Assembly (NCBI RefSeq): GCF_030285785.1
Contig: NZ_CP127247.1
Coordinates: 248,001 to 312,000 of the forward strand
Reading direction: 5' to 3'
DNA from: Parasedimentitalea psychrophila
GTDB lineage: Bacteria; Pseudomonadota; Alphaproteobacteria; Rhodobacterales; Rhodobacteraceae
DNA length: 64,000 nucleotides
In this document: positions 15,403 through 30,477 of the stretch, piece after piece
How positions within the stretch are numbered: the stretch's first letter is position 1
Layout of the letters: every line of letters starts with the position of its first letter
Notes under the pieces: generated by a model
The model's database searches: none
Told to the model about the DNA's origin: nothing
What the model saw: the letters and a program-made list of their open reading frames with translations, nothing else
Position numbers and translations under genes: made by a program

Positions 15403-15470
15403 GGCACTTCTCCTGCTGATTCCACCAATGACTTGACAAGGACCGGGGCGATGACGCAAGGGGGTTTTGT

Positions 15471-15665
15471 TGGTTCCTGTATTTGACAGGCGAAGAGGGA
15501 ATGTGATGTGACCAGTGATCCATCCGGGATCATCAGGTGCAAGCACAGCCGCCCCCGCGACCGTGACCGGAGAGGTCTCTGATGCCACTGGCCTATGGCC
15601 GGGAAGGCAAGAGCACCGCAAAGAGGCAATTGCCTTTTGACTCCGCAAGCCGGGAGACCTGCCAA
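15471..15665 (+). ncRNA. Cobalamin riboswitch controlling the cob operon
   Basis: The conserved parts of the B12 aptamer occur in order on the plus strand: GAGGGAATGTG (near 15495), CCGCCCCCGCGACCGTGA (15549 on), GCCACTG (15584-15590), CCGGGAAGGC (15599-15608) and the B12 box AGCCGGGAGACCTGCC (15648-15663). It ends about 110 bases before the start of the DUF1636 gene, so adenosylcobalamin should switch off DUF1636-cobW and the genes behind. The remaining part of this 375-base gap (15403-15470) holds only the cobO leader. Confidence 0.9.
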
Positions 15666-15777
15666 CACATGAATTCAACGGGCGAACGGGGTGTTTCGCG
15701 ACCGGTTGAGGGATCCTGCTCGACGGGCCCCCCTTCTGGCCCTACCCTTTTTGTCACAGCCAAGGAGACGGTCCCCT

Positions 15778-20300: not shown

Positions 20301-20586
20301 CTGGGCCACCTCGATGATGGCACATGGCTTTCGCGGTGGCGCCGAGATCGCGGCGACGCTGGATCACATGGCCGCCTTTGCCCATCTGGCGCAGGCGGTG
20401 CCGCCGCATCTGTTCGACCTGTATTACGAGGCCACTCTGGGCCGCGACGATCTGGTGGATTTCATGCAGGCCGAGAACCCACAGGCGCTGCAAGCCATGC
20501 GCGACCGCTTCCGCGCGTTGCATCAGGCCGGGCTGTGGATCAGTCGCCGCAACTCGATCATCGCCGATCTTGAAGGTACAGCATGA
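17341..20586 (+). CDS. cobN: Aerobic cobaltochelatase large subunit CobN
   Basis: A 1081-residue subunit that, with CobS and CobT, inserts Co(II) into hydrogenobyrinic acid a,c-diamide using ATP. The magnesium/cobalt chelatase core is seen: HIGAHGTLEWLPGKSVALS near residues 523-540, then IFGCGDCGAQEQAG, SGSPYRGRSDVLPTGRN-type block and MMAHGFRGGAEIAATLDHMAAFAH near the end. The length is shorter than the roughly 1250 residues of the Pseudomonas enzyme but usual for Rhodobacterales. cobS and cobT are not in the window. The stop overlaps the cobG start by four bases. Confidence 0.95.
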   Translation: MHVVFRESHGLEESETPQDLGQTPADLVVLSFSDSDLGAFAAGWHRGDGKLPSLRLANLVALKHPLSVDTYAEQTLIGVKGILVRLIGGESYWSYGLATLQDLARRNGIALAVLPADGREDPRLDELSTLPVSTLRRLQSLCDAGGAVAAQAALAQLSLAAGLYAGPVIGLKTTPEHGFYDPTTGAATSIDADGKPLFLVSFYRSYLTAADTGPVDALITELRARGFAAYGIFAASLKSPKTAHWLRQTLPQLAPSAVINATAFSAISSDGSASPLNTTGCPVFQVALSTARRKDWASAARGLSPADLAMHVVLPEVDGRVFAGVVSFKSPGRKDPKLQYSRFAHHPDPSRIQSVVDRVIGWHRLSALANADKRLSLVLSTYPGKAHQLAHAVGLDALASAETILTTLAAQGYDVEQPGALAPRLIVETLSFTLADYQTALSQLPQPLRDDLTQAWGEPQSDPDCNDGAFHFRALRAGKALIALQPERGDVTTRSDDYHDLERTPRHAYVAFYLWLQAQVDALVHIGAHGTLEWLPGKSVALSTECWPEALTGALPVIYPFIVNDPGEAAQAKRRIGAVTLGHLPPPLAQTTLPDGMARLESLLDEYSTAEGLDPARRDRLIADIRAEAQGTGVEADLGLDGDSSAAEALTRIDRFVCDIKESQYGEGLHIFGCGDCGAQEQAGLLAALSGQLVTPGPSGSPYRGRSDVLPTGRNLFTTDPRAVPSRAAQAQGVKLAEELLRRHLQDHGDWPKGLVIDLWGSATMRTAGEEFAMALHLAGLAPKWDDGSDRVSGFEVIPLALLGRPRIDVTLRVSGLFRDVFPGLAQMFEVAAATLAQRDEDAGDNPYLTQTPRVFGPKPGQYGLNMGAHLDNYTDTARQAAGEAWLNASSHAIDAQGDIAPARAALESRLQGADSFVHLQDLPETDLLMASDYAAHEAGFAAAMARLGQPGPALYHMDMTRPDQPQARSLGEEIARVTRARAANPDWATSMMAHGFRGGAEIAATLDHMAAFAHLAQAVPPHLFDLYYEATLGRDDLVDFMQAENPQALQAMRDRFRALHQAGLWISRRNSIIADLEGTA

Positions 20587-21746
20587 ACAACCGCGTCGCG
20601 CCAAAGGTCTATGGCTGGTGCCCCGGCGCGCTGCGGCCGATGATGTCCGGCGACGGGCTGGTAGTGCGTATCCGCGCACCACTGGGCCGCTTATCTGGTG
20701 ACCAAGCGCAAGCGGTCGCCGACCTCTCACACCGCTTCGGCAATGGCATTCTGGATCTCTCATCCCGCGCCAACCTGCAAATGCGCGGCGTGTCCGAGGA
20801 AGATCACGCGCCCTTGGTCACCGCGCTTCAGGATCTTGGTCTGGTTGATGCCGACGCGGCAACCGAATCCCGCCGCAATGTCCTCGTCGCGCCGTTCTGG
20901 GCCGCTGGCGATCAGACCCACAGTCTGGCCCAGCAACTCAGCGACGCGCTGGTCGCGGCCACCGACCTACCCTTGCCGGGCAAATTCGGCTTTGCCGTCG
21001 ATACCGGGCCTGCGCCTGTGCTGCGCGATACCGCCGCCGATATACGCATTGAGCGCAACCCTGATGGACTTGTGCTGATCGCCGACGGCGCTGACAGAGG
21101 CCTCGCAGTGACGCCGACCACCGCCGCGGCCGAGGCCCTGTCTCTGGCCCGCTGGTTCCTGACCCATGGCGGCGCGCCGGACGGTCGCGGCAGGATGCGC
21201 CCGCTCATTGCGCGCCGCGCACCACCCTCAGCGCATGGCGCGACCCTTACCGCCGCCGCGCCACAACAACGGCTTGGACAGATCGCCAGCGGCAGGCTGG
21301 TCGGGCTGGAGTTCGGCCAGATCCCGGCCACCAGCTTTGCCGCCCTCGCCGCTCAGGGTGCCCTGCGCCTGACCCCGTGGCGGATGCTGCTGGTCGAGCA
21401 CGCTACAGACTTGCCCCCCCTTCCCGGCCTGATCCTGGATGCAGCGGACCCGCGCCTGCAAGTGAGTGCCTGCACCGGCGCACCCGGCTGCCTGCAGGCG
21501 CTATCAAACACCCGGAATTTGGCCCGCGATCTGGCACCCTCTGTGCCACCGGGCCGCAGACTACATGTCTCAGGCTGCGCCAAGGGCTGCGCCCATCCCG
21601 GCGCCGCACCGCTGACCCTGACCGCCACCGGGGCCGACACCTTCAACCTGATCTACAACGGCACCGCCAGTGATCAGCCCGCACACCTAAACCTGAGCGC
21701 CAGCCAGTTGCGCGCCGCTCCCGACATTCTGACAAAGGGCAGCTAA
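20583..21746 (+). CDS. cobG: Precorrin-3B synthase
   Basis: A 387-residue iron-sulfur monooxygenase of the sulfite/nitrite reductase fold that converts precorrin-3A to precorrin-3B with O2, a marker of the aerobic route. The N-terminal half-repeat VYGWCPGALRPMMSGDGLVVRIR and NLQMRGVSEEDHAPLV is typical. The [4Fe-4S] ligands are in SACTGAPGCLQAL and VSGCAKGCAHPGAAPLTL. It starts at the ATGA overlap with cobN and stops one base before cobH. Confidence 0.92.
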   Translation: MNNRVAPKVYGWCPGALRPMMSGDGLVVRIRAPLGRLSGDQAQAVADLSHRFGNGILDLSSRANLQMRGVSEEDHAPLVTALQDLGLVDADAATESRRNVLVAPFWAAGDQTHSLAQQLSDALVAATDLPLPGKFGFAVDTGPAPVLRDTAADIRIERNPDGLVLIADGADRGLAVTPTTAAAEALSLARWFLTHGGAPDGRGRMRPLIARRAPPSAHGATLTAAAPQQRLGQIASGRLVGLEFGQIPATSFAALAAQGALRLTPWRMLLVEHATDLPPLPGLILDAADPRLQVSACTGAPGCLQALSNTRNLARDLAPSVPPGRRLHVSGCAKGCAHPGAAPLTLTATGADTFNLIYNGTASDQPAHLNLSASQLRAAPDILTKGS

Positions 21747-21747
21747 T

Positions 21748-22377
21748 ATGCTCCACACCTACCAAACCAACGGCGCCGCCATCTACGCCGAAAGTTTTGC
21801 CACCATCCGCGCCGAGGCTGACTTGGCCCGGTTCTCCAAGGACGAGGAAAGCGTCGCCGTCCGCATGATCCACGCCGCCGGCATGGTCGGGCTGGAACAA
21901 TACATCCGCTTCTCCCCGGACATGGCTGCAACCGCCCGCGCCGCGCTGGCCACTGGTGCGCCGATCCTCTGCGATGCCCACATGGTGTCCGAAGGCATCA
22001 CCCGCCCGCGCCTCGCTGCCAATAACCAGGTGATCTGCACCCTGCGCGACAGCCGGGTTCCGGATATGGCCAAGGAGATGGGCAATACCCGCTCCGCCGC
22101 GGCGCTGGAACTGTGGCGCCCCAACCTCGACGGCGCCGTGGTCGCCATCGGGAACGCCCCCACCGCACTGTTCCACCTGCTGAACATGCTGCAAGACCCC
22201 AGCTGCCCCCGCCCCGCCGCCATCATCGGCTGCCCGGTTGGATTTGTCGGCGCCATGGAGTCCAAAGACGCGCTGATGCTGGACCTGCCAGTGCCTTCGA
22301 TGATCGTGCAAGGCCGCCTGGGCGGCTCTGCCATCACCGTCGCCGCAGTCAATGCGCTGGCCAGCTGGAAAGAATGA
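21748..22377 (+). CDS. cobH: Precorrin-8X methylmutase
   Basis: A 209-residue cytosolic enzyme that moves a methyl group from C11 to C12 to give hydrogenobyrinic acid. The family blocks SFATIRAEADLARF, RMIHAAGMVGLEQ with the catalytic His, GAPILCDAHMVSEGI, AIGNAPTALFHLL and IGCPVGFVGAMESKDAL are all present. It starts one base after cobG. Confidence 0.96.
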   Translation: MLHTYQTNGAAIYAESFATIRAEADLARFSKDEESVAVRMIHAAGMVGLEQYIRFSPDMAATARAALATGAPILCDAHMVSEGITRPRLAANNQVICTLRDSRVPDMAKEMGNTRSAAALELWRPNLDGAVVAIGNAPTALFHLLNMLQDPSCPRPAAIIGCPVGFVGAMESKDALMLDLPVPSMIVQGRLGGSAITVAAVNALASWKE

Positions 22378-22379
22378 CA

Positions 22380-23096
22380 ATGGGTAAAATCATCTGCACC
22401 GGCCTCGGCCCCGGCGACCCCGACCTGATGAGCCTGCGCTCCTACCGCGCGATCCAGGGCGCACATCACGTCGCGTTTTTCCGCAAGGCCGGCTATAAAG
22501 GTCAAGCGCGCACCCTGGTCGACGGGTTACTGCCTGAAGGCGTTGTCGAGCACGCAATGGAATACCCGGTCACCACCGAGATCCACTTCTCGGACCCGGA
22601 ATACAACCGCCAGCTTGCCGCGTTCTATGACCGCTGGGCCGACACCCTGGCTGAGATGGCCCGCAGTCAGGACGTGGTTGTCCTCTGCGAGGGCGATCCG
22701 TTTTTCTACGGCTCCTTCATGCATCTCTACACCCGCCTGCAAGGGCGCGCCGAGATGGAGATCATTCCCGGCATCACCGGCATGACCGGCTGCTGGACCG
22801 CCACCGGCCTGCCGATCACCTGGGGCGACGACGTGCTAACCGTGGCGATGGCCACCCTGCCCGAGGACGAGCTGGCTGCCCGCGCCGCCAATACCGATGC
22901 GCTGGTGGTGATGAAGATCGGCCGCAACCTGCCCAAACTGCGCCGCGCACTGGAAACAGCCGGCCGTCTCGATGACGCTTGGCTGGTGGAACGCGGCACC
23001 ATGGCGGATCAGACCGTGCAGAAACTCACCGAGATCACCGGCAAAGTGCCCTATTTCTCCATTGTCATCCTACATGGACAGGGACGCCGCCCATGA
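22380..23096 (+). CDS. cobI: Precorrin-2 C20-methyltransferase
   Basis: A 238-residue SAM-dependent tetrapyrrole methylase (CbiL/CobI type) that makes precorrin-3A. GLGPGDPDLMSLRSYRAI opens the fold, LCEGDPFFYGSFMHLYTRL is the SAM loop, and IIPGITGMTGCW follows. Two ATGs, at 22374 and 22380, are in frame. The second has the better distance to GGA at 22368 and is chosen; the first would overlap the cobH stop as ATGA. The stop overlaps the cobJ start. Confidence 0.93.
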   Translation: MGKIICTGLGPGDPDLMSLRSYRAIQGAHHVAFFRKAGYKGQARTLVDGLLPEGVVEHAMEYPVTTEIHFSDPEYNRQLAAFYDRWADTLAEMARSQDVVVLCEGDPFFYGSFMHLYTRLQGRAEMEIIPGITGMTGCWTATGLPITWGDDVLTVAMATLPEDELAARAANTDALVVMKIGRNLPKLRRALETAGRLDDAWLVERGTMADQTVQKLTEITGKVPYFSIVILHGQGRRP

Positions 23097-23851
23097 CCCT
23101 ATCAAATACAGGTTGGATCGCAATCGCCGGCCTCGGCCCCGGTGACGAGAGCATGGTGACGGCGCAGGTGCAGGACATATTGGCCGAGGCAACTGATATC
23201 GTTGGCTATATCCCCTACGTCAAACGCATCCTCCCCCGCCCCGGCCTGACCCTGCACGCCACGGACAATCGGGTCGAGATTGAACGCGCCACCCACGCGC
23301 TGGAAATGGCCGCCTCGGGCCGCCGCGTAGTGGTGGTCTCCTCCGGTGATCCGGGCGTCTTTGCCATGGCCTCGGCTGTATTCGAGGCGCTGGAAGCAGG
23401 CAAACCCGAGTGGCTGGATCTGGATATCCAGGTGCTGCCCGGTATCACTGCCATGCTGGCCGCCTCAGCCCGTATCGGCGCACCAATGGGCCACGACTTT
23501 GCTGCCATCAACCTCAGCGACAACCTGAAACCCTGGAGCCTGATCGAAAAGCGCCTGCGTCTGGCGGGTGAAGCAGGCTTTGCCATGGGCTTTTACAACC
23601 CGCGCTCAAAATCGCGCCCACACCAGTTTGGCCGCGCTCTGGAGATCCTGCGCCAGGCCTGTGGCGGTGACACCCTGATCTCATTCGCCCGCGACGTCTC
23701 GAAACCCGGCGAGACCATCACCACCGTCACCCTGAACGAGGCCAGGCCCGAGATGGCCGACATGCGCACCGTGGTGATCGTTGGCAACAGTGACACCCGC
23801 CGGGTGGGCCGCTATGTCTACACCCCGCGCTTTGCCAAAGATGTAGACTAG
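23093..23851 (+). CDS. cobJ: Precorrin-3B C17-methyltransferase
   Basis: A 252-residue methylase that carries out ring contraction and C17 methylation. GWIAIAGLGPGDESMVTAQ, the SAM loop VVVSSGDPGVFAMAS, and QVLPGITAMLAASARIGAPMGHDFAAINLSDNLKPW are diagnostic for CobJ/CbiH. The ATG overlaps the cobI stop by four bases. The TAG stop lies on the palindrome CTAG, which is also the stop of cobK on the other strand. Confidence 0.95.
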   Translation: MTLSNTGWIAIAGLGPGDESMVTAQVQDILAEATDIVGYIPYVKRILPRPGLTLHATDNRVEIERATHALEMAASGRRVVVVSSGDPGVFAMASAVFEALEAGKPEWLDLDIQVLPGITAMLAASARIGAPMGHDFAAINLSDNLKPWSLIEKRLRLAGEAGFAMGFYNPRSKSRPHQFGRALEILRQACGGDTLISFARDVSKPGETITTVTLNEARPEMADMRTVVIVGNSDTRRVGRYVYTPRFAKDVD

Positions 23852-24582
23852 CAATGATCCAGCCAGGCCATCACCTCATCGACGCAGCCCAGGATATGCC
23901 GCTCCGGCACCTGTGGCCGCTCGATCATCACCACCGGCAGGCCCAGTGCGCGCGCCGCGATCAGCTTGGCCTCGGCGCCGCTGCCTCCGGCGTTCTTGGA
24001 GATGATATGGCTGATGCCATGGTCCAACATCAACGCCCGATCGCTGGCGCCGTCAAACGGTCCTCGCGCCAGTACCACCGTGGTATCCGGCAAGGGCAGT
24101 GCCGCCTCGGGCGCATCCACCAGCCGCAGCAGGTAGTGATTGCCCGGCTTGGCGGCAAAGATATCCAGATTCTGCTTGCCAATCGCCAGAAACACCCGCG
24201 CGCCTTGCTCGGGCAAGGCGGCAACGGCGGCTGCCATATCCGCCACCATGATCCAGTTATCACCCTTGCCTGCCTGCCACGGCTGCCGCTCCAGCGCGCA
24301 CAGCGCCACACCGGCCTCGGCGCAGGCGGCAACCGCATGGCGGCTCATCTGCGCCGCAAAAGGATGGGTGGCATCCACCACATGGCTGATGCCTTCATCC
24401 CGCAAATACGCCACCAATCCAGCCACACCGCCAAACCCGCCCAGCCGCATCCGCAACGGCTGCGGCACCGGGCGCGCGGTGCGGCCGGCATAGGAAAACA
24501 CAGCGTCCCGCCCGGCCACCGCCAGCACACGGGCCAAGGCACTGGCTTCGGTGGTGCCTCCCAGCAAAAGGATACCTGTCAT
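23848..24582 (-). CDS. cobK: Precorrin-6A reductase, antisense within the operon
   Basis: A 244-residue NADPH-dependent reductase producing precorrin-6B. The opening GILLLGGTTEASALARVLA, the VDATHPFAAQMSRHAV block and SKNAGGSGAEAKLIAARALGLPVVMIERP are typical CobK/CbiJ. It runs against all neighbouring cob genes. Its start ATG and the cobL start share CATG (24580-24583), and its stop and the cobJ stop share CTAG (23848-23851). Its promoter must therefore lie inside the cobL coding sequence, or it must be read from a longer antisense transcript. Confidence 0.94.
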   Translation of the reverse strand: MTGILLLGGTTEASALARVLAVAGRDAVFSYAGRTARPVPQPLRMRLGGFGGVAGLVAYLRDEGISHVVDATHPFAAQMSRHAVAACAEAGVALCALERQPWQAGKGDNWIMVADMAAAVAALPEQGARVFLAIGKQNLDIFAAKPGNHYLLRLVDAPEAALPLPDTTVVLARGPFDGASDRALMLDHGISHIISKNAGGSGAEAKLIAARALGLPVVMIERPQVPERHILGCVDEVMAWLDHC

Positions 24583-25768
24583 GTCTGACCCCTGGTTGTC
24601 GATTATTGGTCTGGGTGAAAATGGACTGGCTGGCCTGACAGATGCAAGCCGAACCGCACTGCACCGGGCGGAAATCATCTTTGGTGGTCCGCGCCATCTG
24701 GACCTGGTCAATGCCGCCGACAAGGGCCAGCCTTGGCCGCTGCCCTTTTCCATCGACCCGGTATTAGCAGCACGCGGTAAAAAAGTCGCCGTGCTCGCCT
24801 CGGGTGATCCGTTCTGGCATGGCGCCGGCGGTTCGCTGGCCAAGCACCTTCAGCCCGGCGAATGGACCTCCCACCCCGCGCCCTCGACCTTTGCGCTGGC
24901 GGCCAATCATCTGGCCTGGCGACTTGAGGACACCCTCTGCCTCGGGTTGCATGCCGCCCCCTTTGAACAACTGCTGCCGCTGCTGGCCTCCAACACCCAA
25001 GTGATCTGCACCCTGCGCCACGGCGACGCCCCGGCCGAGCTGGCAAACTGGCTGACCAAGCAGGGGTTTGGCGGCTCGCAACTGGCGGTGATGGAACGCC
25101 TGGGCGGCGCACATCAACGGGTGCGCAGTGCCCAGGCCGATGGATTTGATCTGGATGATATTCAGGCCCCGGTGGCGCTGGCCATTGCTGCCGTCGGCCA
25201 CGGCGGTCTGCCGCGCGCCTCGGGCTTGGCCGACGAGATGTTCCACAGCGACGGTCAGATCACCAAACGGCCGATCCGTGCCCTGACCCTGTCGGCACTG
25301 GCGCCGCGCCCCGGCCAGTTGCTCTGGGATATCGGCGGCGGATCAGGCTCGGTCTCGGTGGAGTGGTGCCTTGCCGCCCCCGGCGCCCGGGCGCTGATAT
25401 TTGAGCAGCGCACGCAGCGGAGCGCGAATATTAACCTGAATGCGGCAAAGTTTGGCCTCACACACCGGATCAGCCTGGTGGTCGGACAGGCCCCGGAAAT
25501 ACTGGAGGCGCAAGAGCTGCCCGACACCGTGTTCATCGGCGGCGGTGCCTCGCAGGCCCTGCTGGACCAGCTGTGGCAAATCCTGCCCGTCGGCACCCGC
25601 GTGGTGGCAAACGGCGTAACACTGGAAACCGAGACCCTGCTGATGAATGCCCATGCCCAACACGGCGGCGACCTGATGAAGGCCGAAATCGCCGAAGTCA
25701 GCCCGCTGGGTTCCATGCGCGGCTGGACCCGCGCCCGCCCCGTCATCCAATGGAGCGTCACCCGATGA
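24581..25768 (+). CDS. cobL: Precorrin-6Y C5,15-methyltransferase (decarboxylating)
   Basis: A 395-residue fusion of CbiE (residues 1 to about 200; IIGLGENGLAGL, VLASGDPFWHGAGG) and CbiT (from about 215; ITKRPIRALTLSALAPRPGQLLWDIGGGSGSVSVEW). It methylates C5 and C15 and removes the acetate carboxyl at C12. The ATG at 24581 sits in CATG shared with the opposite cobK start. An in-frame start upstream would lie inside cobK and has no family match. The stop overlaps cobE. Confidence 0.94.
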   Translation: MSDPWLSIIGLGENGLAGLTDASRTALHRAEIIFGGPRHLDLVNAADKGQPWPLPFSIDPVLAARGKKVAVLASGDPFWHGAGGSLAKHLQPGEWTSHPAPSTFALAANHLAWRLEDTLCLGLHAAPFEQLLPLLASNTQVICTLRHGDAPAELANWLTKQGFGGSQLAVMERLGGAHQRVRSAQADGFDLDDIQAPVALAIAAVGHGGLPRASGLADEMFHSDGQITKRPIRALTLSALAPRPGQLLWDIGGGSGSVSVEWCLAAPGARALIFEQRTQRSANINLNAAKFGLTHRISLVVGQAPEILEAQELPDTVFIGGGASQALLDQLWQILPVGTRVVANGVTLETETLLMNAHAQHGGDLMKAEIAEVSPLGSMRGWTRARPVIQWSVTR

Positions 25769-26145
25769 GGATCGCCGGCCTCGGATTTCGCCAAAGCGCC
25801 AGCACAGATGACCTGCGTGCTGCTCTGGCCCTTACCGGCTGTCCACGCCCCGACGCGCTGGCCTCACTCACCGCCAAGGCGGCAGCGCCGCAAATGCAAC
25901 AACTCGCCGCTGATTTGAACCTGCCGGTGATCGCCCTGTCCGAGGACGAGATCGCCGACACCCCGACCCTAACCAGCTCCCCCCGGATCCAAACCCGCTT
26001 TGGCACTGGATCACTGTGTGAGGCCGCCGCTCTGGTCGCCGCCCGCAACGGCCAGCCAAACACATCCGCGCGCCTGATCGCGCCCCGCGTTACAACAGAC
26101 AATGGCCTTGCCACAGCGGCAATTGCCGAAAGGACGACCCCATGA
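25765..26145 (+). CDS. cobE: CobE/CbiG C-terminal-type cobalamin biosynthesis protein
   Basis: A 126-residue protein equal to the C-terminal domain of CbiG (CobE). [47 protein letters not shown] and [17 protein letters not shown] fit the family. CobE is needed for cobalamin synthesis in the aerobic pathway, but its reaction is not settled. The ATG at 25765 overlaps the cobL stop by four bases; another in-frame ATG lies 15 bases before. The stop overlaps cobM. Confidence 0.85.
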
Positions 26146-26927
26146 CCGTACATTTCATTGGCGCAGGCCCCGGTGCCGCCGACCTGATCACCCTGCGCGG
26201 CCGCGACCTGATTGCCGCCTGCCCGGTGTGCCTCTATGCCGGCTCGCTAGTGCCCGAGGCGCTGTTGCAGCACTGCCCCAACGGTGCGCGCATTATCAAC
26301 ACTGCCTCAATGTCACTGGATGAAATCATCACTGAGATCAAAGCAGCCGATGACGCCGGTCACGACATTGCCCGGCTGCATTCCGGCGATCTGTCGGTCT
26401 GGTCGGCGATGGGCGAACAGTTGCGCCGCCTTCGCGCACTGGATATCGCCTACGACGTCACCCCCGGCGTGCCCGCTTTTGCCGCAGCCGCAGCCGCACT
26501 GGGGGCTGAACTGACCCTGCCCGGCGTTGCCCAATCGCTGATCCTCACCCGCACATCCGGACGTGCATCATCGATGCCCGACGGCGAAACGCTGGAAAAC
26601 TTTGCCAAAACCGGCGCCACCCTGGCCATTCACCTGTCGGTGCATGTGCTAGAGAAAGTTATCGCTGAGCTGACACCCCATTACGGTGCCGATTGCCCCG
26701 TTGCCATTGTCTGGCGCGCCACCTGGCCCGATCAGCGGGTGGTCAAGGCGACGCTGGAGACATTGGAAGACGCCACCGAAGGCGAACGTGGCCGCACCGC
26801 GCTGATCCTTGTTGGTCGTGCCATCGGCGCCGAGGAATTCGACGAAAGCTGCCTCTACGCGGGCGACTATGATCGCCGCTACCGCCCCGTCGGCACCGAT
26901 CCGCGCTTTCCCGAAGGAACCGAATGA
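26142..26927 (+). CDS. cobM: Precorrin-4 C11-methyltransferase
   Basis: A 261-residue SAM-dependent methylase making precorrin-5. [71 protein letters not shown] and the long [22 protein letters not shown] block identify CobM/CbiF. It overlaps cobE and cobB by four bases each. Confidence 0.96.
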
Positions 26928-28237
26928 TGATGCCCCCCGGCCTGATGATCTCGGCGCCCTCTTCGGGCACCGGAAAAACCACCGTGATGCTGGGCCTGCT
27001 GCGCGCCTTCGCCGAAGACGGCATGGTGGTGCAGCCTTACAAAAGCGGCCCCGATTATATCGACCCGGCCTTTCACCTCGCCGCTGCCAAACGGCCCTCG
27101 TTCAACCTGGACACCTGGGCGATGGCACCTGACCTGCTGGATGCCGTCGCTTCGCAAGCCACTGGTGCCGAGATCTGCATCGGCGAAGGCTCCATGGGGC
27201 TCTATGATGGCGTCGCCACCCGTGGCCAGACCGCCTTTGGCACCAGTGCCGAAACCGCCAAGCGCATGGGCTGGCCGGTTATTCTGGTGGTCGATGTCAG
27301 CGGTCAGGCGCAGAGCGCCGCCGCCACCGCGCTGGGGTTCAAGAACTACGACCTCGATGTGCCCTTTGCCGGCGTGATCCTCAACCGGGTCGCCAGCCCG
27401 CGTCACGAACGGCTCACCCGGCGGGGCATGGAAAAGGCCGGCATCAAGGTGCTTGGCTCGCTGCCCCGGCGCGGTGATCTGTCGCTGCCCGAACGCCACC
27501 TGGGCCTGATCCAGGCGGTGGAACACCCCGATCTTGAGGCGGCAATCGCCGGATATGCGACCTTCCTGCGCGAAAACGTCGATCTCGACGCCATCAAAGC
27601 CGCCGCCCGAGGCGGCCCGGCTCCGACGCCGAAACCGCTGCCAACACCGCCCGCCCAACGCATCGCCCTGGCCCGCGATGCGGCGTTCTCGTTCACCTAT
27701 CCGCACCTGCTCACCGGCTGGCGCAATGCCGGCGCCGAGATCCTGCCGTTCTCGCCCCTGAACGATGAGGCGCCGGCGCAGGACGCCGATCTGGTCTGGC
27801 TGCCCGGAGGTTATCCGGAACTGCACGGTGGCACCCTGGCTGCCGCCACCACCTATCTGACCGGCCTGCGCAAACATGCCGCCACCAAACCGGTGCACGG
27901 CGAATGCGGCGGCTACATGGCTTTGGGCGAAGCGCTGATCGACAAGCAGGGCAACCGTCACCAAATGGCCGGACTGCTGGGGCTGGTGACCTCTTATGAG
28001 AAACGCAAGTTCCACCTTGGGTATCGCCGCGCCGTGCTGCAAAGCGCCATGCCTGGATTTACAGCCGGTGACGCCCTGCGAGGCCATGAGTTCCACTATA
28101 CCACCATCCTGGATGAACCCGACGCGCCGCTGGCGCAGGTGTTTGACGCCGATGGCAACCCGGTGCCCGAAACCGGATCGGTCAAGGGCCATGTCACCGG
28201 CAGCTTCTTCCACCTGATCACCGGAGAACCCTCATGA
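26924..28237 (+). CDS. cobB: Hydrogenobyrinic acid a,c-diamide synthase
   Basis: A 437-residue ATP- and glutamine-dependent amidase. The N-terminal dethiobiotin-synthetase-like domain has the P-loop S14-G-T-G-K-T-T20. [13 protein letters not shown] and [10 protein letters not shown] follow. The C-terminal type I glutamine amidotransferase domain shows the nucleophile Cys in [16 protein letters not shown] and the closing GSFFHL histidine. It amidates the a and c side chains before cobalt insertion. Three ATGs in a row begin the gene; the first overlaps cobM. Confidence 0.95.
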
Positions 28238-28956
28238 GCGGCTTTGTCAGCTTTGTCTCCTCCGGCCCCGGCGACCCAGACCTGCTGACCGTCAAGGCCG
28301 TCAAACGGCTAGAGGCCGCCGATGCGGTGTTGTTTGACGATCTGTCCTCTGGCCCGATCCTTAACTGCGCCCGGGACGATGCCGATCTGGTCGGCGTCGG
28401 CAAACGGGCCGGCCGCCCCTCGCCCAAGCAGGACCACGTCAGCAAGCTGCTGGTGGACTACGCGCTGTCCGGCGCCAAAGTGGTGCGGCTCAAATCCGGC
28501 GACTCGGGTGTGTTTGGCCGCCTTGAGGAAGAAATCACCGCCCTGCGCGCTGCGGGTATCGGCTACGAGATCATCCCCGGCGTCACCGCCGCCTCGGCAG
28601 CCGCTGCCGCCGCTGGCATTCCGCTGACCCGCCGCCTGACCGCGCGGCGCTTGCAGTACATTACCGGCCATGATGTGACGGGTGAGCTGCCGGACGACTT
28701 GAACCTGACCGCGCTGGCCGACCCAAATGCCACCACCGTGGTCTATATGGGCAAACGCACCTTTGCGGCGCTGGCGGAACTGCTGATAACCCACGGGTTA
28801 CCGCCTGAAACCCCGGCCATGTTGGCGATGGCAGTCTCTACCCCGGATCAACAACTGTCGCATCACACGGTTGGCGAACTGCCCAAGCTGCTGCGCGAGC
28901 TGAAAACCACCGCGCCGGTGCTGATCCTTTACGGCCCTCTGGCCGAACCGGAATGA
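28234..28956 (+). CDS. cobA: Uroporphyrinogen-III C-methyltransferase
   Basis: A 240-residue SUMT that methylates uroporphyrinogen III twice to precorrin-2, the entry to the corrin route. SGPGDPDLLTVKAVKRLEAADAVLFDDL, VGKRAGRPSPKQDHV, RLKSGDSGVFGRLEEEI and IIPGVTAASAAAAAAGIPLTRR are all family signatures. No CysG-type dehydrogenase domain is fused. Overlaps cobB and the second DUF1636 gene by four bases each. Confidence 0.95.
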   Translation: MSGFVSFVSSGPGDPDLLTVKAVKRLEAADAVLFDDLSSGPILNCARDDADLVGVGKRAGRPSPKQDHVSKLLVDYALSGAKVVRLKSGDSGVFGRLEEEITALRAAGIGYEIIPGVTAASAAAAAAGIPLTRRLTARRLQYITGHDVTGELPDDLNLTALADPNATTVVYMGKRTFAALAELLITHGLPPETPAMLAMAVSTPDQQLSHHTVGELPKLLRELKTTAPVLILYGPLAEPE

Positions 28957-29300: not shown

Positions 29301-29359
29301 GTCGCAAATCCGCCTCTGAACGGTCGGTTTCAAACTTGACCCAGCAAGGGGCAATAAGG

Positions 29360-29563
29360 CACATTGGCGCCATATGGTGTTCACATGGGCGCAAAGCGTC
29401 AGGACTGAAACGGGAATGAGGAACGGCGGACCCAATTGCGGCGTCGAGACCTCAACCGCCCCCGCGACTGTGAGTGGCGAGCGGCTTTCCAGACCACTGC
29501 CGGGCAGATGTCCGGTGGGAAGGGGAAAGTTGGCTGTGACCCACGAGTCAGGAGACCGGCCAT
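29360..29563 (+). ncRNA. Second cobalamin riboswitch, in front of cbtBA
   Basis: Plus-strand B12 aptamer elements: AACGGGAATGAGG (near 29410), CCGCCCCCGCGACTGTGAG (29458 on), ACCACTG (29493-29499), GGGAAGG (29517-29523) and the B12 box GAGTCAGGAGACCGGCC (29545-29561). It lies within the 309-base gap 29301-29609, ending 47 bases before cbtB. It should make cobalt transport follow B12 level. The 5' edge is approximate. Confidence 0.9.
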
Positions 29564-29609
29564 ATGGAACGCAATTGATGCCGTCGGGTGTGACGGCAAG
29601 GAGAACGAC

Positions 29610-29780
29610 ATGACGACTAAAACACTTAACACGACCGCCACTGGCCTTGGTTTTCTGCCGGCCGTTTTTGCCGTGGTTCTGGGTCTGGGCATCATGACCC
29701 TGACCGGCCACGTTCAGGCATCAGCCCTGCATGACGCCGCACATGATGTGCGTCACGCATCCGGCTTTCCCTGCCACTAA
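29610..29780 (+). CDS. cbtB: Cobalt transporter subunit CbtB
   Basis: A 56-residue membrane protein with one transmembrane helix (LGFLPAVFAVVLGLGIMTLTG) and a short C-terminal tail with three His (ALHDAAHDVRHASGFPCH), the features that define CbtB. CbtB and CbtA form a predicted B12-regulated cobalt importer of the inner membrane. Start ATG at 29610 behind AAGGAGAA. cbtA begins four bases after the stop. Confidence 0.88.
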   Translation: MTTKTLNTTATGLGFLPAVFAVVLGLGIMTLTGHVQASALHDAAHDVRHASGFPCH

Positions 29781-29784
29781 GGCA

Positions 29785-30477
29785 ATGTTTAGCCGCATTT
29801 TAACCAGCGCGTTGTTCGCTGGTGCTGCAGCAGGGTTGATTGCCGCCCTGCTGCAGTTAGTGTTCGTGCAGCCTGTTCTGCTCCACGCCGAGCTTTATGA
29901 GTCCGGTGAGTTGGTGCATTTCGGGGCCGAATCCGTGTCTGCTCATCCAACCCTGCCCGGTTTCGATGCCATGCGCGATGGGCTCAGCATCGTCTTCACC
30001 ATGTTGACCTATACCGGTTATGCGCTGGTGATGGTTGCGCTGATGTCCATTGCCGAAGAGCGAGGCGCTAAGATCAATGCCCGTGTTGGTATTATCTGGG
30101 GTCTGGCCGGTTTCATCACCTTCCACTTTGCTCCGGGTCTGACCCTGGCGCCCGAGGTTCCGGGTGTTGCCGCCGCAGACGTAGGCGATCGCCAGCTCTG
30201 GTGGACCGCAACCGTCGCGACGGCTGGCATTGCCATGTGGCTGATCGCCTTTGGTGGCAACAAGATCAGTTATGCGATTGCGGCGGTTCTGCTGCTGGCA
30301 CCGCATCTGATCGGTGCGCCCGAACCCGACAGCTTCTCGGGTCCCGTGCCAACCGAGATCGGCGCTCTGTTTGCCGCCCGCGCCTTTGGCGTTGGCATGG
30401 CAGCCTGGGTTCTGGTCGGCACATTTGCCGGATATTTCTGGCAAGCCGAAGGTGAGCGCGCCGAGGCCTCTGCTTAA
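29785..30477 (+). CDS. cbtA: Cobalt transporter subunit CbtA
   Basis: A 230-residue membrane protein with about five or six hydrophobic helices (ILTSALFAGAAAGLIAALLQL, LTYTGYALVMVALMSI, VGIIWGLAGFITFHFAPGL, LWWTATVATAGIAMWLIAFG, AARAFGVGMAAWVLVGTFAGYFW). FITFHFAPGLTLAPEVPG with conserved His is a CbtA hallmark. It follows cbtB by four bases and a terminator-like hairpin follows its stop. The start at 29785 puts the first helix at the N-terminus. Confidence 0.88.
   Translation: MFSRILTSALFAGAAAGLIAALLQLVFVQPVLLHAELYESGELVHFGAESVSAHPTLPGFDAMRDGLSIVFTMLTYTGYALVMVALMSIAEERGAKINARVGIIWGLAGFITFHFAPGLTLAPEVPGVAAADVGDRQLWWTATVATAGIAMWLIAFGGNKISYAIAAVLLLAPHLIGAPEPDSFSGPVPTEIGALFAARAFGVGMAAWVLVGTFAGYFWQAEGERAEASA

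Follow-up and report, generated by a model that had tools for sequence, protein, structure and literature searches.

The 64,000-nucleotide (nt) stretch of Parasedimentitalea psychrophila DNA analysed here (the window; contig NZ_CP127247.1, positions 248,001–312,000) contains a cob gene cluster of the vitamin B12 pathway, in which cobK runs antisense between cobJ and cobL. The plus strand opposite cobK holds a conserved open reading frame (ORF) of 244 codons that joins cobJ to cobL, and from the sequence comparisons below we consider that this frame probably acts as a translation bridge, relaying ribosomes from cobJ to cobL. The original prediction for this locus, made from the DNA letters alone, correctly reported the antisense placement of cobK, with CTAG at 23848–23851 and CATG at 24580–24583, and overlooked the bridge ORF, which is the main feature of the junction. 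The elements involved are listed in window coordinates, with the basis of each assignment.

23093–23851, plus strand: cobJ (precorrin-3B C17-methyltransferase), with the stop TAG (ORF; PF00590; same order annotated in Paracoccus)
23848–23851: CTAG, the 4-nt overlap of the cobJ and cobK stops (ORF coordinates)
23848–24582, minus strand: cobK (precorrin-6A reductase), 244 residues, with no TTA, CTA or TCA codon (ORF; PF02571)
23854–24588, plus strand: bridge ORF, 244 codons from ATG to TGA, opposite cobK, its codons mirroring cobK codons (ORF; relatives)
24568–24572, plus strand: AAGGA, the likely cobL Shine-Dalgarno, opposite cobK codons 4–5 (Shine-Dalgarno analysis)
24580–24583: CATG, the start codons of cobK (minus) and cobL (plus), with 2 nt common to the coding regions (ORF coordinates; relatives)
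24581–24588, plus strand: ATGTCTGA, the cobL start enclosing the bridge stop TGA, a −8 coupling motif (sequence; relatives)
24581–25768, plus strand: cobL (precorrin-6Y methyltransferase) (ORF; PF00590)
24589–24593, minus strand: AGGGG, a possible cobK Shine-Dalgarno, opposite cobL codons 3–5 (Shine-Dalgarno analysis)

The cobK product belongs to the CbiJ/CobK family (PF02571, E 5e-71, 239.3 bits against a cut-off of 28.6), and cobJ and cobL both match PF00590. In the window the bridge faces nearly the whole of cobK; it begins 2 nt past the cobJ stop, a downstream position imposed by the use of TAG as that stop, and it terminates within the cobL start.

Under the proposed relay, a ribosome that has completed cobJ would reinitiate at a start codon in contact with the cobJ stop or adjacent to it, and would read some 244 codons of sequence antisense to cobK. 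It would then terminate within the region of the cobL start and reinitiate on cobL, which would stay coupled to cobJ via the bridge. Without the bridge, cobJ and cobL would be separated by about 730 untranslated bases; with it, translation could reach cobL, and the long plus-strand mRNA would be kept covered by ribosomes where cobK runs backwards. Untranslated mRNA is exposed to Rho, according to the excerpted text of PMC12548453, and ribosome cover may spare the distal genes Rho-dependent polarity and perhaps also base pairing with cobK mRNA. The selected property would be a translatable frame, not the protein made. We infer translation of the bridge, co-transcription of cobJ with cobL and the part played by Rho from the sequence features described below.

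Conservation, ends and codon content of the bridge

We searched for PF02571 in 149 genomes of the family, of which 113 matched, and in 240 genomes of the class, of which 79 matched. The resulting first set comprises 180 loci, lower-scoring PF02571 matches being left out; 70 of the 180 have the order cobJ(+) cobK(−) cobL(+), and in two others cobJ(+) cobK(−) stands without a detected cobL neighbour. The second set came from a profile search of genome contigs, based on 20 aligned CobKs from loci of this order, and consists of the 80 best among 548 confirmed places; 79 of the 80 share the order and a contig end truncates the remaining one. Being drawn with CobKs of this order, the set is not a frequency estimate. 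Its taxa include Rhodobacteraceae, Acetobacter, Bradyrhizobium, Sphingomonas, Acidovorax, Comamonas and Halomonas. The 147 main loci include that of the window; L198 and L200 were removed as exact duplicates, and near copies such as L233 and L237 were kept. Three loci were excluded: L194, which a contig end truncates, and L034 and L038, which have cobJ with an antisense cobK in a phase other than 1 mod 3 and showed no cobL in the DNA retrieved. A further batch comprises 17 loci, L330 and L344 being left out as their genomes were already counted and duplicates being otherwise unchecked. Several genomes carry two or more PF02571 matches.

An unbroken bridge spans the interval between the cobJ stop and the cobL start in 140 of the 147 loci (66/70 in the first set, 74/77 in the second), and the other two plus-strand frames opposite cobK are open in none. 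At a GC content of at least 0.55 it is present in 138 of 139 loci; L056 and L079 (GC 0.52–0.53) retain it, as do 15 of the 17 loci in the further batch. Of the 57 first-set loci with the CATG junction, 54 have a mirror frame free of stops over cobK, and none has either of the other two frames open; the three exceptions are the low-GC L022 and L059, and L072, where the sole stop derives from cobK codon 2, 1 nt before the cobL ATG. Eight loose antisense sandwiches occur in 1.2 Mb of the P. psychrophila genome, with a bridge coupled at both ends at cobK only.

Both ends of the bridge lie at positions characteristic of coupled genes, for which −4 NTGA and −8 NTGNNTGA are known enriched spacings in the excerpted part of PMC12548453. 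In 129 of 147 loci the cobJ stop carries a start codon at −4 (ATG 103, GTG 22, TTG 4), four of the 129 being unbridged (L022, L233, L237, L241). Relative to the in-frame cobL start candidate (that nearest to +1 was taken), the bridge stop lies at +5 in 124 of the 147 loci, at +1 (NTGA) in 8 and at +8 in 5. In most relatives the bridge opens with NTGA at the cobJ stop and closes with ATGNNTGA at the cobL start, so that spacings are mostly −4 and −8 in relatives and +2 and −8 in the window. Controls at the same 57 CATG loci returned zero: ATGA is found at 39 cobJ stops and no cobK stop, and a stop at +5 or +8 follows 53 cobL starts and no cobK start.

The reading phase of cobJ and cobK is 1 mod 3 in 142 of the 147 loci, and the phase linking them through the bridge is kept in all 11 main-set loci where the genes do not touch (2–107 nt apart) and in three of four gapped loci of the further batch, the miss being L334. 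In L328 (Methylobacterium bullatum) and L341 the bridge frame remains open across a 170-nt cobJ/cobK gap to an ATGA at cobL. As a separate observation, the low-GC loci L041, L059, L233, L237 and L241 keep an antisense cobK having lost both the bridge and the cobJ/cobK phase, with an overlap of 23 or 47 nt.

A stop in the bridge requires TTA, CTA or TCA in cobK, so avoidance of these codons keeps the bridge open. Expected counts were derived from the codon use of the other cob genes at each locus, with every locus of the gene order used. The 139 loci at GC of at least 0.55 together have 3 such codons in cobK, where 133.5 are expected (1 against 55.4 in 65 first-set loci; 2 against 78.1 in 74 second-set loci). 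L214 and L218 each have one at the extreme cobK end, inside the cobJ overlap and before the bridge start; the third belongs to L078, a locus whose genes have moved apart and which has lost the bridge. Counts for the other genes at the same loci (seen against expected) are as follows.

cobJ: 67 against 64.9 (first set); 81 against 87.3 (second set)
cobL: 122 against 136.9 (64 first-set loci); 195 against 170.5
cobM: 29 against 24.4; 88 against 105.9
cobI: 34 against 54.1; 53 against 70.8
cobH: 12 against 16.0; 55 against 66.6
cobB: 12 against 18.4; 55 against 72.1

Where cobK stands in other gene orders it shows no such deficit (110 seen against 94.9 expected; 63 loci used of 92). Within the GC range 0.55–0.65, the bridged order gives 0 against 65.5 (32 loci) and other orders 84 against 67.4 (30 loci of 43). 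In a previous tally of a subset of these loci, the 53 CATG loci had 1 against 48.0 and the 78 controls 231 against 170.4.

Because the cobK and cobL starts overlap, each Shine-Dalgarno lies within the coding region of the other gene. The cobL Shine-Dalgarno embedded in cobK has a mean of −6.91 kcal/mol compared with −4.37 kcal/mol for synonymous shuffles, and is the stronger in 100 of 122 CATG bridge loci; that of cobK is slightly stronger than cobL shuffles (−4.51 versus −3.88; 87 of 122 loci). The window values are −5.4 versus −4.8 for cobL and −6.0 versus −4.1 for cobK.

Alternatives to a ribosome relay

Several observations weigh against a relay. The bridge is absent in L022, L041, L059, L233, L237 and L241 (GC 0.40–0.51), in L078 (GC 0.74; cobJ and cobK 107 nt apart and uncoupled) and in L334 and L343 (GC 0.62–0.65, one other family, also cobJ(+) cobK(−) cobL(+)); with nine loci of this order lacking it, the bridge is not essential to the gene order. 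When low-GC loci are included, the cobK deficit shrinks to 34 codons against 93.9 expected (70 loci) and 37 against 118.5 (77 loci), and the 15 first-set loci without CATG (including the low-GC L041, and L034 and L038 without cobL) contain 21 against 26.4. The unbridged cobI, cobH and cobB also fall below expectation, at 0.63–0.83 of it, with cobK far lower at 0.02. Frames mirroring GC-rich genes are often open by chance, a point that the codon-count controls address. The loci share ancestry, mostly belonging to one clade, and are not independent trials; the nominal Shine-Dalgarno p-values treat related loci as independent and are therefore overstated. Finally, the similarity of mirror proteins exceeds simulation slightly more for cobK (+0.27 BLOSUM) than for cobJ (+0.18) or cobL (+0.20), an excess that leaves room for weak selection on a product.

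The last point bears on the alternative that survives best, namely that the bridge is a genuine antisense overlapping gene and that its 244-residue product functions in the B12 pathway. Its openness in 140 loci with a proper start and stop and the mirror-protein excess are what such a gene would give, but the tests for constraint on the product gave nothing clear, and we regard this explanation as unlikely. The 4-fold sites of cobK are first codon positions of the bridge, so slow change at cobK third positions would be expected if the bridge protein mattered. No reduction was detected: 4-fold divergence is 0.355 in cobK, 0.31 in cobJ and 0.368 in cobL over the 45 pairs of least cobJ divergence among 2973, a choice that favours a low cobJ value and makes cobL the fairer yardstick, and the cobK value lies below that of cobJ plus cobL in 15 of the 45 pairs, which share loci and include three between unbridged loci. 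The product is thus not clearly constrained, and purifying selection of the kind expected for an antisense gene was not seen at these sites, the slight mirror-similarity excess remaining. Codon identity at same-residue positions is likewise similar (cobK 0.500, cobJ 0.488, cobL 0.480). There is one invariant column among 38 bridge proteins, compared with 45 among 20 CobKs; none of the 38 matches Pfam or PHROGs at E 0.001; and AlphaFold returned no confident fold for the bridge protein (mean pLDDT 38), a result from a shallow alignment of 38 sequences that does not prove disorder. A functional bridge product was rejected as a candidate on these results.

A second alternative retains translation of the plus strand and changes its purpose: the strand would be translated only to keep the mRNA free of cobK pairing or RNase III cuts, with cobL coupling as a by-product. 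It draws on the noncontiguous operon of Staphylococcus aureus (menE-menC-MW1733-ytkD-MW1731), the closest concept to the present locus, which shares with it an inner opposite-strand gene within a run of same-strand genes, and complementary mRNAs. According to the excerpted text of PMC7154746, the paired S. aureus stretch is not translated and RNase III processes the transcripts, whereas the cob locus has an end-coupled ORF across many families; the open frame, its coupled ends and the selection against stops point away from an untranslated paired stretch here. The exact join to the cobL start and the strong embedded Shine-Dalgarno fit coupling better than protection, which we judge quite improbable as the sole function.

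The original prediction proposed instead that a clean inversion of a formerly in-line cobK had occurred at the two palindromic tetramers, and that the arrangement was kept because antisense RNA tunes precorrin-6A reduction. Its observation was right, but the palindrome and inversion story mostly was not. The two genes at each junction were said to share start or stop letters, which applies to the 4-nt overlap of cobJ and cobK; CATG is the union of the cobK and cobL ATG codons, and the two coding regions share just 2 nt (AT). Palindromy carries little information: opposite-strand ATGs sharing AT must spell CATG, which makes its palindromy no separate fact, and a 4-nt stop/stop overlap is limited to CTAG, CTAA, TTAG or TTAA, two of the four being palindromic. 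When a crude gene caller was run on 1.2 Mb of the same genome to obtain base rates, the right (CATG) end proved rare there and the left (CTAG) end did not: 2-nt divergent start overlaps occur in 1 of 145 divergent pairs, which is cobK/cobL itself, and 4-nt convergent overlaps in 5 of 146 convergent pairs, cobJ/cobK included.

The expectation of a fixed arrangement in relatives was borne out for orientation and for the widely kept CATG, but not for the CTAG end. Where cobJ lies within 300 nt of cobK, the two are on opposite strands in 152 cases and on the same strand in none (260 loci, redundant rows included), and the CATG junction occurs in 57 of the 70 first-set loci having cobL. The spacing of the cobJ and cobK tails extends from a gap of 107 nt to an overlap of 52 nt, and in 84 of 147 loci it is 25 or 28 nt. 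A 4-nt overlap is found in nine of the 147 (CTAG 3, TTAG 3, CTAA 2, TTAA 1), in all of which the bridge start lies at −1 to +8 of the cobJ stop; a conserved CTAG was rejected on account of this variability.

Nor would an inversion leave the neighbours intact, since reversing 23848–24583 fuses cobJ in frame to cobK and turns the cobL ATG into TAG. A tree of 107 CobK proteins, from which five rows with in-line cobL-cobK are absent, includes 62 of this gene order. These require two label changes, and the nested L166 has a different order; CobKs of this order thus appear to form almost one clade, which one nested row would have left. The reversal damage, the near-single clade, the lack of same-strand cobJ–cobK neighbours and the variable CTAG led us to discard inversion at the palindromes. 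The promoter that cobK was said to need within cobL was not found in clear form: one weak minus-strand match lies at 25184–25155, and no outstanding rise in synonymous conservation was seen along cobL. The antisense geometry itself is real, a riboswitch lies upstream on the plus strand, and antisense regulation could coexist with a bridge; as an explanation of the locus, inversion with tuning is nevertheless highly improbable.

Chance, whereby the mirror frame of a GC-rich gene is open as TTA, CTA and TCA are rare and the end motifs coincide with it, accounts well for cobJ, whose own mirror frame is open in 30 of 74 second-set loci (30.7 expected), but is scarcely credible for cobK given its codon deficit with controls near expectation, the coupled ends with controls at zero and a frame kept across gaps.

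Operon context and comparable systems

The remaining cob features of the window lie on the plus strand on either side of the junction.

15454–15680, plus strand: cobalamin riboswitch (RF00174), upstream of the plus-strand cob genes
20583–23096, plus strand: cobG, cobH (21748–22377) and cobI (taken from 22374), upstream operon genes (ORFs; PF02570 for cobH, PF00590 for cobI; same order annotated in Paracoccus)
25765–28956, plus strand: cbiG C-terminal gene, cobM and the genes that we take to be cobB and cobA, with a 4-nt overlap at each join (ORFs; PF01890 and PF00590 for the first two)

Overlaps of 4 nt are possible at seven of the eight other plus-strand joints from cobN to cobA (with cobI from the ATG at 22374), the cobG/cobH joint being a 1-nt gap. 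These overlaps and the upstream riboswitch suggest that the outer genes are co-transcribed through cobK. A second cobalamin riboswitch (29358–29578, 102.6 bits) lies upstream of a plus-strand ORF at 29731–30477 with an apparently hydrophobic product.

Other gene orders place cobK differently. In Azotobacter (L323) it follows cobL in line with a 4-nt overlap, which would be an alternative coupling solution; cobK also adjoins cobL on the same strand in L346, L347 and L348, as in L323. At many other loci cobK lies behind what we take to be a cbiD-like gene on its own strand, and this second locus type occurs in the same families (L083, L097, L141 and L163, with a 4-nt overlap in L097). In plasmid records of Paracoccus and Rhizobium, cobK is annotated backwards and no bridge gene is given; older maps of P. 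denitrificans presumably also draw cobK backwards.

Among known systems, termination-reinitiation coupling through NTGA and NTGNNTGA resembles the bridge in the −4 spacing on the cobJ side in most relatives and the −8 spacing on the cobL side, but the genes described in the excerpt of PMC12548453 are co-oriented, whereas the middle ORF here is opposite a gene and its product is seemingly unselected. Antisense overlapping genes of E. coli O157 are likewise long ORFs antisense to established genes, sometimes in an operon; the excerpt of PMC9927249 proposes products for them, whereas at cobK translatability seems to be what is selected. For the cob cluster of Ensifer and P. denitrificans, the excerpted part of PMC4070679 reports overlaps between all neighbouring genes from cobH to cobL and does not mention a bridge ORF. 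Among the matches listed from openly licensed PMC literature on antisense or opposite-strand cobK, and on coupling with antisense or noncontiguous operons, the titles, abstract openings and excerpts describe no such bridge.

With somewhat more reserve than for the relay itself, we favour the view that the bridge represents a new kind of element: a long hidden ORF opposite a gene, kept only for its translatability, that relays ribosomes and transcription, with its protein irrelevant and cobK codon choice shaped accordingly across many families. If the relay is correct, the locus would illustrate how a reversed gene can be accommodated in an operon while the genes after it continue to be translated, would explain the codon avoidance of cobK by a demand of the opposite strand, and would caution that an antisense ORF may be conserved and yet encode no useful protein. 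A stop-free mirror frame coupled at both ends would then be a signature by which other relay ORFs could be recognised, and synonymous mutations would allow the cost of untranslated antisense stretches to be tested directly.

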